The notes beneath the pieces were generated by a model, which ran no database searches, was not told the origin of the DNA, and saw only the letters and a program-made list of their open reading frames with translations. This document shows, one piece after another, positions 13,648 through 21,004 of a stretch of DNA of 64,000 nucleotides (the stretch's first letter is position 1; the number at the start of each line of letters is the position of its first letter). The DNA is from Sphingobacteriaceae bacterium (GTDB taxonomy: Bacteria; Bacteroidota; Bacteroidia; B-17B0; Aurantibacillaceae). Where the stretch lies: positions 1 through 64,000 of the forward strand of contig CANKBS010000008.1 of assembly GCA_947480015.1 (NCBI GenBank). The letters run 5' to 3'. The position numbers and the translations under genes were made by a program.

Positions 13648-15858
13648 TTAAAGAAGATTAAAAAGATAAGTTTCACTTCGGTTTTTATGATGAATACTGA
13701 ATCGATTGAGCTTATGTTCTTTTAGTTCTAACTCAAAATTTATTTTTTTAAAACCGTAGTTCATCAATTTAGCTTCTACTTCCGAGCGAATGATAAGTTG
13801 TTGCGGAGCATACTGATTATCAGCATAAGTAAATACCGAACTGTAATTGGCTTTGGTAAATAAATAAAACGGTGCTAAAAAATCTTGAAAAAACTGTACC
13901 GGTTTATTACTAAAATGTATAAGCGGTACCTTATCCGTTACGGTGAGCGATTCATAATATCCCAACAACTGCCGGTAAGCAGCCAAATAAAACTGAAATA
14001 AAACTGAATCATGATCACCTTCAAAATCGGTGAAATACAACATCACCCCATCATTCACAAAATAAGCGTACGAGCGACTTTGAGCACAGTAGAGATACTT
14101 ACGGTTATATGCATCTGTAAACACTTCCCATAAAATGCTTGCAGAAGTTATTTCATTTTTTAATCCCAGTTTTTGCCCAGGTATAAAGGCAAAAGCGATG
14201 CTCAGTAACTCATTTACTTGAACATTTGAAATAAAACTTCCTTCTTGAGGCACTTCCGAAATACGTAGTGCTTTTTCATTGCCCTTGCGTTCAATAAAAT
14301 AAGAAACTGGATAAGCCAAGGTTTTTTCACCAATAACCGGATTGGTCTGAAACTGAAAATGGATGTGTGGCTCCGGTGAACGTCCTGAATTACCGCAGGT
14401 TGCCAGATAAGTGCCTTTGTAAACATATTGTCCCACAAATACAGCAAAGGAATCTTTTTTAACATGACTAATTTGTGAATACAAACCATTGAGGTGATTC
14501 AAAATAATGGTGTTTCCCCAATTGTAATCGGTATTCACTTCTCCCACATCGTTTTCTTCTACATTATTGATGATGTCGTAAACATAAGCATCGAAAGGAG
14601 CCAAAATTTCTTTGTTATAACAATAAAAATCCTCCCGCGAAAACCCTTCGCTCACATGTGTCGGCTCACGATAGGTATTCCCTTTAGAATCCACGATCAC
14701 AAAATCCAAGGCTTTACTCCAACCACCCAAATGGGTAATTTTGCCATCGTAACCTTGACTCACCTGCCACTCCCCAAAAAAAGGCAATGAGATTTTATAC
14801 AAATGTTCGTTCTTAAATCGTTGCAAGGAATTTAAATACTTGTAAATCGTTTTTTCAGCAGAAAAATATTGAATAGTCACCAATTGTAAATACCGTTGAA
14901 AAAAACGCTGATTTAGGGTGAACAAAAATGCGGTACAAACCATACTGAAAGAAAGGGAGTAGGCTCGTAACTGAAAAACGCCAACAATTTTACCTAAGGA
15001 CACTAAAACAAGCATTAGTACAGGAATTAAGATGACAACGGTGAGATAGCTGTAGGTATTTGGAATAAGAAAAAAACATCCAATGGCAATGGCCAAAAAA
15101 ATAAAATTGGCGCCTTGCAAATTATAATTCAGGTCGTTTACATCGGCACCAAACATGGAGTAAAACAAATACGCCAAAACAAAACCAATCACACTTAATG
15201 AAAAGGCTATGCGTGAAAAATACAACAGGCCAAACGCAATAAACATTCCACCTAAAACCGAGCTTTGAAAAAAGGTACCTGCTAAGGTTTTAAAATAATT
15301 TAGTGCAAAAGGAAATATACGAAGATTATCGGCGCTGTGTACCATATGATACCACCAATAGGAATCATTACGAGCCGCTTCATTAATCACATAAATATGA
15401 TTTTCATCGGGAAGAATACGGGTAAAATTAGAGGCGGCTAACGATACAATCCAATAGGTGATAATAAAGGGAAAAGACAAAAAGGGCAATTGGTACATGG
15501 CAAGTAAACCCTTCAACCAAACAGTCATTAACAGGAGCACCAAAACCGCACTTAAAAATAATAACACAAATGAAAAATTAAAACTAAAGTCATAAGCCAT
15601 GGCCAGTCCCAGAAACAAGGCGTTAAATCCAAAAAGTCCTCCTTTAATCTCCTCGCGGTTAAACCCAACGAAATAGGCTGAAAGATTAATCAAAACGATG
15701 GCTAATAAACCCATCAAACCCAAATAAGGAGAAAAAAAGGTAACCAGCAAAATAATGAAAGCAAATACCGGGTCGAGCGAAAAGAACATCAAACTATAAC
15801 TGTTTAAGATACACTGAAACCAGTAATTTTCTTTCGCCTTTGTTAACAGATCTTTCAA
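13648..15858 (-). CDS. Urea-transporter domain fused to M23 metallopeptidase
   Basis: A 736-residue protein. Residues about 15-330 carry roughly ten hydrophobic helices with motifs of the urea transporter family, for example GLMGLLAIVLINL and GGLFGFNALFLGLAMA. Residues about 360-540 form an M23 (lysostaphin-type) peptidase domain; the zinc ligands appear as H376, D385 (in SKALDF) and the HxH pair H498/H500 (in PEPHIHF), with GNSGRSP before it. The last 190 residues are unassigned. The start is a TTG at 15858, because no ATG precedes the conserved N-terminus; an ATG at 15789 would cut the first helix region. Orientation suggests one transcript with the two genes behind it. Coupling of a channel to a wall peptidase is inferred to be periplasmic. 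Confidence 0.8.
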   Translation of the reverse strand: MKDLLTKAKENYWFQCILNSYSLMFFSLDPVFAFIILLVTFFSPYLGLMGLLAIVLINLSAYFVGFNREEIKGGLFGFNALFLGLAMAYDFSFNFSFVLLFLSAVLVLLLMTVWLKGLLAMYQLPFLSFPFIITYWIVSLAASNFTRILPDENHIYVINEAARNDSYWWYHMVHSADNLRIFPFALNYFKTLAGTFFQSSVLGGMFIAFGLLYFSRIAFSLSVIGFVLAYLFYSMFGADVNDLNYNLQGANFIFLAIAIGCFFLIPNTYSYLTVVILIPVLMLVLVSLGKIVGVFQLRAYSLSFSMVCTAFLFTLNQRFFQRYLQLVTIQYFSAEKTIYKYLNSLQRFKNEHLYKISLPFFGEWQVSQGYDGKITHLGGWSKALDFVIVDSKGNTYREPTHVSEGFSREDFYCYNKEILAPFDAYVYDIINNVEENDVGEVNTDYNWGNTIILNHLNGLYSQISHVKKDSFAVFVGQYVYKGTYLATCGNSGRSPEPHIHFQFQTNPVIGEKTLAYPVSYFIERKGNEKALRISEVPQEGSFISNVQVNELLSIAFAFIPGQKLGLKNEITSASILWEVFTDAYNRKYLYCAQSRSYAYFVNDGVMLYFTDFEGDHDSVLFQFYLAAYRQLLGYYESLTVTDKVPLIHFSNKPVQFFQDFLAPFYLFTKANYSSVFTYADNQYAPQQLIIRSEVEAKLMNYGFKKINFELELKEHKLNRFSIHHKNRSETYLFNLL

Positions 15859-16321: not shown

Positions 16322-16759
16322 ATGGGTTCTACAGTTAATTTAAAGAGCAAAATTCGGGAAGCAAACCTTTTAAAATTGAAGCAAAAAACGATTTTTAAAA
16401 ATTTTGTAACCTGGTTTGAAATCCCTGCCTACAATCATTACCGCTCTGTTGCCTTTTTTAATTACATCTATGGCATCGAAATTACCAGCGTTGAAATTAA
16501 TGGCCTTGCCATGGGTTTTTTCCCTGCAGAAAGCGGAATTGGTGGCGCCATTGTAACCGGACCGGGCTGTGTACCTAGCGAAATTGGTCCGCTTATTTAT
16601 TTAAACGGTGGTGAAGATTTGAACATGGTTTTATCAAAAGTGAACGAAGCGGGTGGACGCGTGGTGATGGAAAAAACATACATCAGCGATGCGGCTGGTT
16701 ACTTCGCCCTATTCATCGATTCGGAAGGTAACCGTTTGGCACTTCATTCTAAATACTAA
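16322..16759 (+). CDS. VOC-family (glyoxalase-like) protein
   Basis: A 145-residue protein with a single vicinal-oxygen-chelate module. The pattern WFEIPAYNHYRSVAFFNYIYG at about residues 36-56 is the classic first beta-alpha-beta unit, and DAAGYFALFIDSEGN near the C-terminus is the second; the rest matches the family's length. Unlike many VOC proteins it has about 30 extra basic residues at the N-terminus. VOC enzymes bind a metal and act on varied small molecules. It starts the tight operon with the PLP decarboxylase (gap 12 bases), which suggests it acts on or detoxifies a product of that pathway. The reaction is unknown. Confidence 0.8.
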   Translation: MGSTVNLKSKIREANLLKLKQKTIFKNFVTWFEIPAYNHYRSVAFFNYIYGIEITSVEINGLAMGFFPAESGIGGAIVTGPGCVPSEIGPLIYLNGGEDLNMVLSKVNEAGGRVVMEKTYISDAAGYFALFIDSEGNRLALHSKY

Positions 16760-16771
16760 TTTTTAAAGGGT

Positions 16772-19507
16772 ATGCATTCAAAACATTATAACATTAACCA
16801 ATTACGTATCGACCTGTGGAATGAACTTAAAGAAAAAAGCAATCAGGTAACCCGATTGCAAAACGAGAGTGGGGCCGACGAGCGTTTAAAGGAACTGCAA
16901 GACGTTTTACGGAATTTACTCGGTATCGAACAGTACTTTTCTTTTCCGGGAGCTGATTTGGTGCACCGAATCATGAAAGCTCTTAAAAAAGGTGAGCTAA
17001 AAGCCCTAAGTAACCGTGTAAGTGAGATTGTAGCCTTATTGGTTAGCGACAATTACCGCCTCTATCCCGAAATGATGGATGAAAATTCGAGTGGTGGTTT
17101 TGCTAACGATGCAAAAAAAGACAAACTCAATCCGGGACCTAAAAAAAATTATTTTGAAGTGCTTTATGTGGAGGACATGTCCACCAAAGAGGAAAACACC
17201 CTAAAAAGCCGAATAAAAGAACTCATCAATCCGCACGACACGCTTACCTACGAAATAGTGGTGCAACGCTCTTTTCAGGATGCACTCATCTGTCTCTTTT
17301 TTAATTATAACATTCAAGCAGCGGTAATCCGATATGCCCCGCTGCATGGCTCAACCAATAGTAACACACTCATTCGTCCTTTTATTGAAACCGTGCTAAA
17401 AATCAACATCTCTGAAGTGAGCGATGCCGATCTGGGACCATTATTGGGACAGTACATTCATCTATTCAGACCGGAACTTGATATTTATTATATAACGGAT
17501 ACCTCGTTGACGCACCTGGACGATGCCACCCTAAAATCCTTTCGCCGTATTTTTTACCGCATGGAAGATCTGCAGGAACTGCATCTCACCATTATCAGCG
17601 GCATTAACGAGCGTTACGACACACCCTTCTTTACTGCCCTCTGTGAATATAGCAAACGCCCCATATCGGTGTTTCATGCCATGCCTATTTCAAGAGGCAA
17701 CTCCGTTTTTCGTTCACGTTGGATCACCGACTTTGGTGATTTTTATGGCCGCAATGTATTTCTGGCAGAAACCTCCGCTACCAATGGTGGCCTCGATTCC
17801 CTGCTTCAAGCCAAAGGTCCGTTAAAAAAAGCACAAGAAAAAGCAGCTAAAGCCTATGGTGCCGAGCATTCGTTTTATGTGAGTAACGGTACTTCCACGG
17901 CAAATAAAATTGTACAACAGGCACTCATTAAACCCGGTGATGTGGTGCTGGTTGACCGTGATTGTCATAAATCACATCATTACGGTTTGGTCCTTGCCGG
18001 CGCTTTTCCAGCCTACCTCGATTCCTATCCCATTCAGGAATATTCGATGTATGGTGCCGTGCCACTGCGTGTAATTAAAGAAAAACTCATCCAGTTAAGC
18101 AACGCAGGCCGACTGGATAAGGTAAAAATGCTTTTGCTTACTAACTGTACTTTTGATGGTTTAGTTTACAACGTTGAAAAAGTAATGGAGGAAGTGCTGG
18201 CCATTAAACCCGACATGGTGTTTTTATGGGATGAAGCCTGGTTTGCTTTTGCCAGCTTTACCTACACCTATAAACAACGTACCGGCATGTATGTGGCGCA
18301 AAAATTATTTCATAAATACCGGAGCGCCGACTATAAACAACAATACAAATTACATCTTGAGGCTTTAAAGCCCGGTGAACGTCCTAGCCTACCAGATCCT
18401 GATCGTGTAAAAATTCGCGTCTATGCCACTCAAAGCACGCATAAAACACTTTCCAGTTTCCGTCAAGGTTCAATGATTCAGGTGTGGGACGAAGAGTTTA
18501 GCCGACGTGTGGCCGATAATTTTCAGGAAGCGTACATGACGCATACCACCACTTCACCTAACTATCAAATCCTGGCATCGCTTGATGTTGGCAGAAGACA
18601 GGTTGAACTGGAAGGTTATGAATTGGTAGAGAAGAGTATTGAAATGGCCATGATTCTTCGTTCAAAAGTTCAAGATCATCCAAAACTGAGTAAGTATTTT
18701 CATGTCTTATCGGTGAATGACCTCATTCCAAAAGAATTCAGAGCCTGCGGCACTAAAGAATATTACACGGTAGCTGAAGGTTGGGACCGTATGGAAGAAT
18801 CGTGGGAGAAAGATGAATTTGTACTCGATCCTACTAAAGTAACGCTCTCTGTAGGTAAGGCCGGAATTACAGGCGATGCCTTTAAGAATACCTATTTAAT
18901 GGATCGTTTTAACATTCAATTAAATAAAACTTCCCGCAACACGGTGCTGCTAATGACCAACATTGGTACCACCCGCGGCAGCATAACATTTTTAATTAAC
19001 GCCCTTCTACAAATAGCCGACGAGCTCGACGAAAGCAACCGCTCTTTAAATAAACGTGAAGCTGAAATTTCAAAACGTCATATTCAGTCCCTTATTTTAG
19101 ATGTGCCGCCACTACCCGATTTCAGCGCCTTTCACCGTTCCTTTTTAGCAGCGCCGGGCGTGCCAGGCGGTAACATTCGTGAAGCCTTTTTTCTGGCTTA
19201 TGAGGAAGATTTATGTGAGTACCTATTATTAAGGGATTGTGAAACCGCTTTAAAAAAAGGACGCGAATTAGTCTCCACCTCCTTTGTCATTCCATATCCG
19301 CCGGGCTTTCCCATTTTGGTACCCGGCCAGGTAGTCAGCGAAGAAATTATTCGTTTTATGATTGCATTAGATGTAAAAGAAATACACGGTTACCGTGCCG
19401 ATTTGGGTCTGAAGATTTTTAATCAGGAAGCTCTTAACCGCAAAAATACCGTATCGGCTATGGGCGCCATGCCATTATTGGAAAAGAAAATAAAAGCAAA
19501 AAAATAA
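16772..19507 (+). CDS. Orn/Lys/Arg decarboxylase-type PLP enzyme
   Basis: A 911-residue fold-type I PLP enzyme, longer than the 710-755 residues of the E. coli LdcC/AdiA/SpeF enzymes. An N-terminal wing-like region (about 1-300) precedes the PLP core. Visible core motifs are DRDCHKSHHYG at about residue 394, DEAW at about 487 (the PLP-N1 Asp) and the Schiff-base lysine K558 within STHKTLSS. The C-terminal region ends near IPYPPGFPILVPG, also typical of the family. Activity on arginine, lysine or ornithine cannot be separated from sequence. It is translated from an ATG 12 bases after the VOC gene and followed within 9 bases by the ATP-grasp gene. Confidence 0.88.
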   Translation: MHSKHYNINQLRIDLWNELKEKSNQVTRLQNESGADERLKELQDVLRNLLGIEQYFSFPGADLVHRIMKALKKGELKALSNRVSEIVALLVSDNYRLYPEMMDENSSGGFANDAKKDKLNPGPKKNYFEVLYVEDMSTKEENTLKSRIKELINPHDTLTYEIVVQRSFQDALICLFFNYNIQAAVIRYAPLHGSTNSNTLIRPFIETVLKINISEVSDADLGPLLGQYIHLFRPELDIYYITDTSLTHLDDATLKSFRRIFYRMEDLQELHLTIISGINERYDTPFFTALCEYSKRPISVFHAMPISRGNSVFRSRWITDFGDFYGRNVFLAETSATNGGLDSLLQAKGPLKKAQEKAAKAYGAEHSFYVSNGTSTANKIVQQALIKPGDVVLVDRDCHKSHHYGLVLAGAFPAYLDSYPIQEYSMYGAVPLRVIKEKLIQLSNAGRLDKVKMLLLTNCTFDGLVYNVEKVMEEVLAIKPDMVFLWDEAWFAFASFTYTYKQRTGMYVAQKLFHKYRSADYKQQYKLHLEALKPGERPSLPDPDRVKIRVYATQSTHKTLSSFRQGSMIQVWDEEFSRRVADNFQEAYMTHTTTSPNYQILASLDVGRRQVELEGYELVEKSIEMAMILRSKVQDHPKLSKYFHVLSVNDLIPKEFRACGTKEYYTVAEGWDRMEESWEKDEFVLDPTKVTLSVGKAGITGDAFKNTYLMDRFNIQLNKTSRNTVLLMTNIGTTRGSITFLINALLQIADELDESNRSLNKREAEISKRHIQSLILDVPPLPDFSAFHRSFLAAPGVPGGNIREAFFLAYEEDLCEYLLLRDCETALKKGRELVSTSFVIPYPPGFPILVPGQVVSEEIIRFMIALDVKEIHGYRADLGLKIFNQEALNRKNTVSAMGAMPLLEKKIKAKK

Positions 19508-19516
19508 TTACACAAT

Positions 19517-21004
19517 ATGCCAAACGCTTCAAAAGGACAAAAAACACTTTTAACTGTAGAAGATATTAAACAGTATTTCAAAGCCAATGAAATGCCTGTG
19601 TACTTTATTTCTGCTACTAATTTTAATTTATTGGGCATCGACGAATGGATCTCCAATTTTAAATTCATTAGTCACATCGATTGTTTTGATGGTGAACATC
19701 CTAATCTTTTTTCGCCGGCAGAAGAGCTGCCACATGACGAATTTAGCTGTATGGAAGACATCAATAACTACTTGCTTCAACATCCGGAAGTGAAAAATTT
19801 TATTCGCTCCAGAAGCAAGAATGGTAAAGCCGGAAAAGCCGTGTTTTTAATGTTTAACGAAAGAACCGAACAACTGTGTGCAGAACTGGGTCTGGATATT
19901 TGTTTTCCTTCTTCACAACTCCGCGCGTTTTTAGACAATAAAGTGAATACCAACCGCATAGCCGAAAAGGCTGGTGTAGCCTGTGTTCCATACGTTTTAT
20001 CGCCGGTTGAAAGTTACACCCACTTACAACACATATCGGCACATTTAGGTAATGATCTCGTTGTTCAAACACCTTTTGGTGATTCGGGACATACCACTTT
20101 TTTTATATCTACCGCAGGTGAGTTTGATCATTACGCCGAAGAGATTTTGAAAGAAAAGGAAGTGAAGATTATGAAGCGGATTAATTGTTTCGGAACAGCC
20201 ATTGAAGGCTGCGTGACGAAACAAGGTACGCTCGTGGCACCTTTAATGACCGAGTTAGTGGGCTTTAAAGAACTTACGCCATACAAAGGTGGTTGGTGTG
20301 GCAATGAAATTTTTCCGAATGCCTTTAATGAAGATATCCGTGAAAAAGCAAAACGCTATACTGCAAAATTTGGCGACCAGCTGCTAAAAGAAGGATACAA
20401 GGGTTATTTTGAACTGGATTTTTTAATTGATAAGGATAATAGTGAAATTTATTTGGGTGAATTAAATCCACGCATTTCGGGAGTGAGTTCACTCACCAAT
20501 CATTCAAAATTTGCCATGGAAGAAGTACCCTTGTTTTTATACCACCTGCTCGAATGGATGGAAGTGCCCTATGAAATAAATGTAGCCGAACTCTCCAATC
20601 GCTGGACCCAAGCCGAAAATATGGATAGCTGGAGTCAGCTCGTTATTAAACATACCCGAAAAACACTTGAGCTGGCAATTAAAGCACCGGCTTCGGGTAT
20701 CTGGGAAATGAAAATGAATGGCCATATTGCTTATAAAAAAATGGATGCACATCGTCAATCGGTTGTACAAGACACCGAAGCATTTTATTTACAAATCACG
20801 CAAAAAGACGGTTATTTGTACGAGGGCGCCGATTTAGGTATTTTAGTCATGCGCGGCAGATTAATGTCCAATGATTTTGAACTCAGCGAGCGCGGTAAAC
20901 GCTGGATTAGAGCCATTCGTTCACATTATAAATCACACATGATCGAAGCCGACATTCTTGATGAGAATGATCTCATCAACAGCGAGGGTTTTAAAATGAT
21001 GTAA
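19517..21004 (+). CDS. ATP-grasp domain protein
   Basis: A 495-residue ATP-grasp ligase-like protein. The ATP-grasp core runs from about residue 140 to 350, with the phosphate-binding loop near PFGDSGHTTF, a central VKIMKRI strand and the Mg-binding motif GELNPRISG at about residue 320. Such proteins join a carboxylate to an amine or thiol with ATP. Position 9 bases behind the decarboxylase suggests that the amine it makes, or its substrate, is one partner. The product is unknown. The stop codon abuts the convergent gene at 21005. Confidence 0.85.
   Translation: MPNASKGQKTLLTVEDIKQYFKANEMPVYFISATNFNLLGIDEWISNFKFISHIDCFDGEHPNLFSPAEELPHDEFSCMEDINNYLLQHPEVKNFIRSRSKNGKAGKAVFLMFNERTEQLCAELGLDICFPSSQLRAFLDNKVNTNRIAEKAGVACVPYVLSPVESYTHLQHISAHLGNDLVVQTPFGDSGHTTFFISTAGEFDHYAEEILKEKEVKIMKRINCFGTAIEGCVTKQGTLVAPLMTELVGFKELTPYKGGWCGNEIFPNAFNEDIREKAKRYTAKFGDQLLKEGYKGYFELDFLIDKDNSEIYLGELNPRISGVSSLTNHSKFAMEEVPLFLYHLLEWMEVPYEINVAELSNRWTQAENMDSWSQLVIKHTRKTLELAIKAPASGIWEMKMNGHIAYKKMDAHRQSVVQDTEAFYLQITQKDGYLYEGADLGILVMRGRLMSNDFELSERGKRWIRAIRSHYKSHMIEADILDENDLINSEGFKMM

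Follow-up and report, generated by a model that had tools for sequence, protein, structure and literature searches.

The window, by which we mean the whole 64,000-nucleotide stretch analysed here, comes from a genome of 3.77 Mb that is 99.99% complete and evidently belongs to a Bacteroidota species, its closest named relatives in the genome scan being of that phylum. It carries three consecutive genes for a VOC-fold protein, a PLP-dependent decarboxylase and an ATP-grasp protein (Table 1), and an ORF check placed 12 bp between the first two and 9 bp between the second and the third. The sequence-only reading had given the same three open reading frames, with the same coordinates, gaps and lengths (145, 911 and 495 aa), as well as an STHK sequence at residues 555-558 of the decarboxylase and the GELNPRISG motif of the ATP-grasp protein, and all of these are present as it described them. 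It had also called the decarboxylase unusually long; within its own subfamily the length is ordinary, and Rv2531c chains of 933-947 aa align with it end to end. Promoter and terminator scans gave signals not above chance level, and a search for a guanidine or other riboswitch as a clue to the substrate, in the window and seven related loci, returned tRNA matches only.

Table 1. Features of the locus, with positions counted from the first nucleotide of the window
Feature	Position	Strand	Basis or remark
VOC-fold protein	16322..16759	+	ORF, 145 aa; first core-operon gene in Bacteroidota
Fold-type I PLP decarboxylase of the Rv2531c family, 911 aa	16772..19507	+	OKR_DC_1; full-length Rv2531c match
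ATP-grasp protein, 495 aa	19517..21004	+	NF005096; predicted fold
Lys558 codon of the decarboxylase (STHK), expected PLP Schiff-base lysine	18443..18445	+	
Arg308 codon of the decarboxylase	17693..17695	+	Invariant in alignment
Arg564 codon of the decarboxylase	18461..18463	+	Invariant in alignment
Asn718 codon of the decarboxylase (NKTSRN)	18923..18925	+	Invariant in alignment
GELNPRISG motif of the ATP-grasp protein, residues 314-322	20456..20482	+	Alignment
Urea-transporter-domain protein with C-terminal M23 peptidase domain	13648..15858	-	PF03253, PF01551

Conservation and distribution of the operon

A scan of the ATP-grasp protein against genome contigs gave 331 relatives, 80 of which were taken as loci. 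By tblastn, 73 of the 80 have the decarboxylase upstream of the ATP-grasp gene; of the seven others, six begin at a contig end or close to it, and in the one true exception (L045) the ATP-grasp gene is preceded by a carbon-nitrogen hydrolase fragment instead, despite room on the contig. In 72 clustered loci the decarboxylase is directly 5' of the ATP-grasp gene (median gap 24.5 bp), and in 37 loci the VOC gene is immediately 5' of the decarboxylase (median gap 6 bp). The adjacency of decarboxylase and ATP-grasp gene spans Bacteroidota, Balneolota, Ignavibacteria, Gemmatimonadota, Planctomycetota and Proteobacteria. Co-occurrence was counted in 395 evenly sampled Bacteroidota genomes, where the ATP-grasp gene was found in seven and the decarboxylase in eight, the two being shared and adjacent in all seven ATP-grasp carriers (hypergeometric P = 2.8e-14). 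The eighth decarboxylase genome (G248) was considered as a case of a decarboxylase without an ATP-grasp gene and rejected, its decarboxylase running off the contig end. Only five of the 36 other genomes of the window's genus (G002, G022, G026, G027 and G028) contain a strong ATP-grasp match, and the operon is thus patchily distributed, a pattern that a mobile or frequently lost trait would be expected to show.

A conserved, patchily distributed amino-acid operon, present in many unrelated bacteria, has these three genes as its core. The 80 loci and 395 genomes rule out a random arrangement in relatives, the outcome that would have undone the unit proposed from the sequence. That proposal had recognised no described pathway, and a literature search, in which subscription papers were thinly covered, likewise yielded no account of the operon.

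Departures of the enzymes from their named families

The decarboxylase matches Pfam OKR_DC_1 (E = 4.6e-78; 263 bits against a cut-off of 27), and with this domain and the STHK lysine, which is invariant in 28 aligned homologues, it belongs to the fold-type I Orn/Lys/Arg decarboxylase superfamily. Against the NCBIfam models of AdiA/CadA/SpeF type it scores only 110-212 bits, the cut-offs being 794-1310, whereas residues 9-899 align to Rv2531c of Mycobacterium tuberculosis with E = 8e-239 (profile score 1112 bits), which places it in that family. For the active site, 22 family members were aligned with AdiA, CadA and SpeF of Escherichia coli, and a column was counted as replaced when at least 90% of the 22 differed. 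The three E. coli enzymes agree at 135 columns, and 37 of these are replaced across the family. Arg308 stands in place of a Gly of the PGHxGG motif (the window sequence reads MPISRG), and Arg564, six residues past the PLP lysine, in place of Ser373 of CadA and Ser392 of AdiA, both being Arg in 22 of 22 members. Asn718 is invariant, its counterpart being Glu in CadA and SpeF and Thr in AdiA, and the C-terminal PGE has become PGQ. The sites of the PLP lysine and of the PLP-binding Asp have been kept, and at the latter the DEAW sequence is as in AdiA. Two gained arginines and one lost acid fit an anionic substrate, short of proof, although PLP phosphate binding may be the sole role of Arg564. The loss of the substrate-binding Glu (CadA 'VEKTG') was considered as a mark of the family and is weakened by AdiA, which itself has Thr there.

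AdiA, CadA (LdcI) and SpeF thus share with the decarboxylase the OKR_DC_1 domain, the PLP lysine, DxAW and PYPPG, but keep the PGHxGG motif that it has lost, and by its sequence it is not a member of the AdiA/LdcC/CadA/SpeF decarboxylases proper. The sequence-only reading had called for a comparison with AdiA, LdcC and SpeF; the one made here, with AdiA, CadA and SpeF, puts the decarboxylase outside that group and in the Rv2531c family. The accompanying view of an Orn/Lys/Arg-type enzyme that supplies a basic amine finds no support, given these invariant departures and the pairing of solo relatives with aspT described below. Data on Sinorhizobium meliloti SMa0682/SMa0680 were set aside, as the S. 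meliloti 'arginine/lysine/ornithine decarboxylase' is 27% identical and of the canonical kind.

The ATP-grasp protein belongs to NF005096 ('biotin carboxylase', PRK06524; 723 bits against a cut-off of 684). Its predicted structure (mean pLDDT 85) has the ATP-grasp fold, aligning with the biotin carboxylase 3ouz at Z 22.9 and rmsd 4.0 over 387 residues, and is about equally near biotin carboxylase, PurK, PylC and GAR synthetase (Z 21-23). The catalytic base of E. coli biotin carboxylase is Glu296, within the motif E-x-N-x-R-x-Q-V-E. The corresponding stretch here reads ELNPRISGV, with Val323 at the position of the base and Val, Ala or Ile there in 33 homologues, and so the base is missing. No biotin carrier or carboxyltransferase is among the genes recurring around the 80 loci. 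The name of the model is doubtful on both counts, and the protein is more likely an amide ligase or a biotin-free N-carboxylase than a biotin carboxylase. Its motif and predicted fold are compatible with the carboxylate-amine-ligase type, which describes it better and agrees with the ligase-like character it had first been given. PylC, PurK and GAR synthetase, with carboxylate-amine or N-carboxylation chemistry, resemble it in predicted fold (Z 21-22.7), but are only 7-14% identical and give no sign of a common substrate.

The VOC protein of the window matched no Pfam or NCBIfam model, and a homologue (L041) matches PF00903. Its predicted fold (mean pLDDT 84) is that of the glyoxalase/VOC group, with E about 5e-7 to E. 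coli GloA (1f9z), and the structure search recovered the general fold only. The four metal ligands of GloA are H5, E56, H74 and E122; by hand alignment only, H5 corresponds to Trp31 and E122 lies near Ala140. In the operon it would be an accessory protein.

Both enzymes of the operon come from known families, and the gene order, the membership and the motif departures are observed, the chemistry being what we infer from them. Judged by their motifs, the two proteins contradict both database names, and the operon provides strong genomic context for two misleadingly named families, the 'amino acid decarboxylases' of Rv2531c type and the 'biotin carboxylases' of PRK06524.

Longer operons and other genomic settings

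Outside the window's clade the gene order is class-III aminotransferase, carbon-nitrogen hydrolase, VOC protein, decarboxylase, ATP-grasp protein, C45 Ntn-hydrolase and aldehyde dehydrogenase, with the VOC gene mostly in Bacteroidota and the C45 gene often present. The best NCBIfam models are GABA transaminase for the aminotransferase (TIGR00700, 483 bits against 507) and SSADH for the aldehyde dehydrogenase, both below the equivalog cut-off; N-carbamoylputrescine amidase and nitrilases, weakly, for the carbon-nitrogen hydrolase; and, above its cut-off, the C45 acyltransferase/hydrolase model for the C45 protein. Since the operon of most relatives also encodes an aminotransferase, an amidase, an Ntn-hydrolase and an SSADH-like enzyme, the module would be at least partly catabolic there. 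Two further genes were noted in some loci, one for an amino acid permease between the decarboxylase and ATP-grasp genes (L051, 6372-7814; L059, 3850-5295) and one for a protein of 233-236 aa without a Pfam match, between or near the ATP-grasp and aldehyde dehydrogenase genes (L115, 10288-10995; cluster c13, comprising L042, L043, L052, L057 and L058).

In several loci, among them L053, L061 and L117, the aminotransferase and carbon-nitrogen hydrolase reading frames share a few bases. This overlap, together with the lost PGHxGG motif, would suit a decarboxylase that carries out some other PLP reaction (oxidative decarboxylation to an amide, elimination or transamination), with the carbon-nitrogen hydrolase then cleaving an amide; the DavB/DavA lysine route is a precedent for oxidative decarboxylation to an amide followed by its hydrolysis. 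We consider this improbable, because the window's genome has the decarboxylase and no close homologue of the hydrolase, the lysine and the Asp at the PLP site are both in place, and a precedent was not found in the superfamily.

In the window's clade there is the three-gene core only, adjoining the divergent gene for the urea-transporter/M23 protein (PF03253, 4.8e-41; PF01551, 1e-11), a neighbour conserved in this clade alone (a cluster of 11 sequences plus L111 and L113). A search of the window's genome found no C45 protein, no close carbon-nitrogen hydrolase homologue (only a weak partial match at 27% identity) and no urease; its aminotransferases are about 30% identical to the operon type, none being a close homologue, and it has three ureohydrolase-family genes.

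On rhizobial plasmids, decarboxylase, ATP-grasp and C45 genes are followed by genes for a peptide-type ABC transporter and amidases. One such set adjoins nifHDKEN on a Rhizobium leguminosarum plasmid (L089, 1149-14477) and another lies near Nif11-type RiPP genes (L087); a role in symbiosis is possible for these two. Roseobacter ponti has hydrolase, decarboxylase, ATP-grasp and C45 genes in a row with gabT nearby.

Solo relatives of the decarboxylase, without an ATP-grasp gene, adjoin the aspartate:alanine antiporter gene aspT in Phyllobacterium, Rhizobium and Rhodobacter as well as in two Ensifer, and the antiporters score above the Asp:Ala equivalog cut-off. In Phyllobacterium an SSADH gene is also nearby. 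A parallel is seen in E. coli, where adiC, cadB and potE are beside or near adiA, cadA and speF. In a tree from which E. canadensis was left out, the aspT-linked decarboxylases form a separate clade with full support, and their substrate could be other than that of the operon enzymes. Furthermore, Rhizobium sp. T1473 and Ensifer canadensis have an aspartate 4-decarboxylase gene near aspT, and the antiporter may therefore serve that enzyme instead. As a side observation, a seemingly undescribed pair of decarboxylase and antiporter for acid resistance is suggested by the orphan decarboxylase with one or two flanking aspT genes (L101-L104 and L123), which in one case has an HdeA/HdeB-family gene nearby.

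In Shinella and strain XES5, ATP-grasp, C45 and hydrolase genes lie inside an AruI arginine operon without the decarboxylase. Compared with their counterparts in L041 and L073, the Shinella carbon-nitrogen hydrolase shows 51-52% and the Shinella C45 protein 45-52% identity; the accompanying AruI-type set leads from arginine to GABA (AruI, 737 bits against a cut-off of 500) and includes agmatinase-like and ornithine-racemase/arginase-like genes. Two genes annotated 'alanine racemase' (L091, 12785-14572; L088, 12804-14591) lie in an AruI-type arginine operon, and that of L091 joins an ornithine-racemase-like to an arginase-like domain. The XES5 solo decarboxylase gene is near arginase and ArgP genes.

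These last settings raise the alternative that the whole module handles arginine: the decarboxylase would make agmatine, aminotransferase and dehydrogenase would lead to 4-guanidinobutyrate, the ATP-grasp protein and hydrolases would act on guanidino compounds, and the urea-transporter-domain protein of the window's clade would move urea. The AdiA-like DEAW, the XES5 neighbours, the urea-transporter gene conserved beside the operon in the window's clade, and ureohydrolase-family genes without a urease in the window's genome all lean that way. The replaced active-site motifs and the solo pairing with aspT speak against it, as do the Shinella operon itself, which lacks the decarboxylase, and the flavobacterial operons, in which no ureohydrolase family recurs. 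An Rv2531c knockout of M. tuberculosis, moreover, grows normally on arginine (PMC4569260). We regard use of arginine as unlikely, though less so than a different PLP reaction.

Proposed function and comparison with known systems

We propose, at a probability of roughly one in three, that the decarboxylase acts on an acidic amino acid, glutamate or aspartate, and that the ATP-grasp protein joins the omega-amino acid product into an amide. The linkage to aspT, the GABA-shunt-like neighbours, the two gained invariant arginines and the change of PGE to PGQ would all suggest an acidic substrate; the evidence separates neither glutamate from aspartate nor, strictly, the decarboxylase from use of arginine. 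Conversion of glutamate to GABA is favoured, because GABA is the point common to the operon of flavobacteria, the gene surroundings in Phyllobacterium and the arginine operon of Shinella. Conversion of aspartate to beta-alanine comes next and is still possible, since GABA transaminases often accept beta-alanine and AspT carries aspartate. The ATP-grasp protein would then use ATP to link the omega-amino acid, by way of either its amine or its carboxylate group, to some partner as an amide. In the longer operons the C45 Ntn-hydrolase may split or transfer this amide, the carbon-nitrogen hydrolase may free ammonia from an amide, and the GABA-transaminase-like and SSADH-like enzymes may take the omega-amino acid to succinate. 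The window's genome is without C45 and has no hydrolase or aminotransferase closely related to the operon type, and here the conjugate would be an end product.

Closer to the sequence-only reading is a polyamine amide as a natural product, for which the decarboxylase would turn a basic amino acid into agmatine or a diamine and the ATP-grasp protein would couple this to a carboxylate. Such a product would accord with the OKR_DC_1 superfamily of the decarboxylase and with the nearness in fold of the ATP-grasp protein to PylC, which acylates a lysine amine. The motif replacements, the aspT pairing and the Rv2531c knockout count against it as they do against arginine, most loci outside the window's clade have catabolic companions (aminotransferase and SSADH-like enzyme), and no natural-product genes recur around the operon in the 80 loci; we hold this to be quite unlikely.

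An assigned function for the two operon enzymes would bear on a rhizobial-plasmid pathway, once beside nif genes, and on the orphan M. tuberculosis PLP enzyme Rv2531c. The latter ('probable amino acid decarboxylase'; PDB 9n0n, 9n0o and 9n0p) is a full-length relative with a solved structure, and its activity is given as unknown in a 2026 review (PMC12910592). It shares with the decarboxylase the residues at Lys558, Arg308, Arg564 and Asn718 as well as VPGQ, but has Ile where the operon enzymes have an invariant Arg722. A broader and more speculative idea, to which we give less weight than to the proposal for the operon itself, is that this widespread branch of the OKR fold, Rv2531c included, decarboxylates an acidic amino acid and, with the amide ligase and the Ntn-hydrolase, would make and split conjugates of GABA or beta-alanine in many phyla, in a bacterial parallel to the Black-Ebony-Tan cycle of insects.

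That cycle consists of an aspartate decarboxylase, a beta-alanyl-amine synthase and a C45-type hydrolase. By analogy, decarboxylase, amide ligase and C45 hydrolase in a row would amount to the same chemistry, with the differences that Ebony is not an ATP-grasp protein and that the window's genome is without the C45 step.
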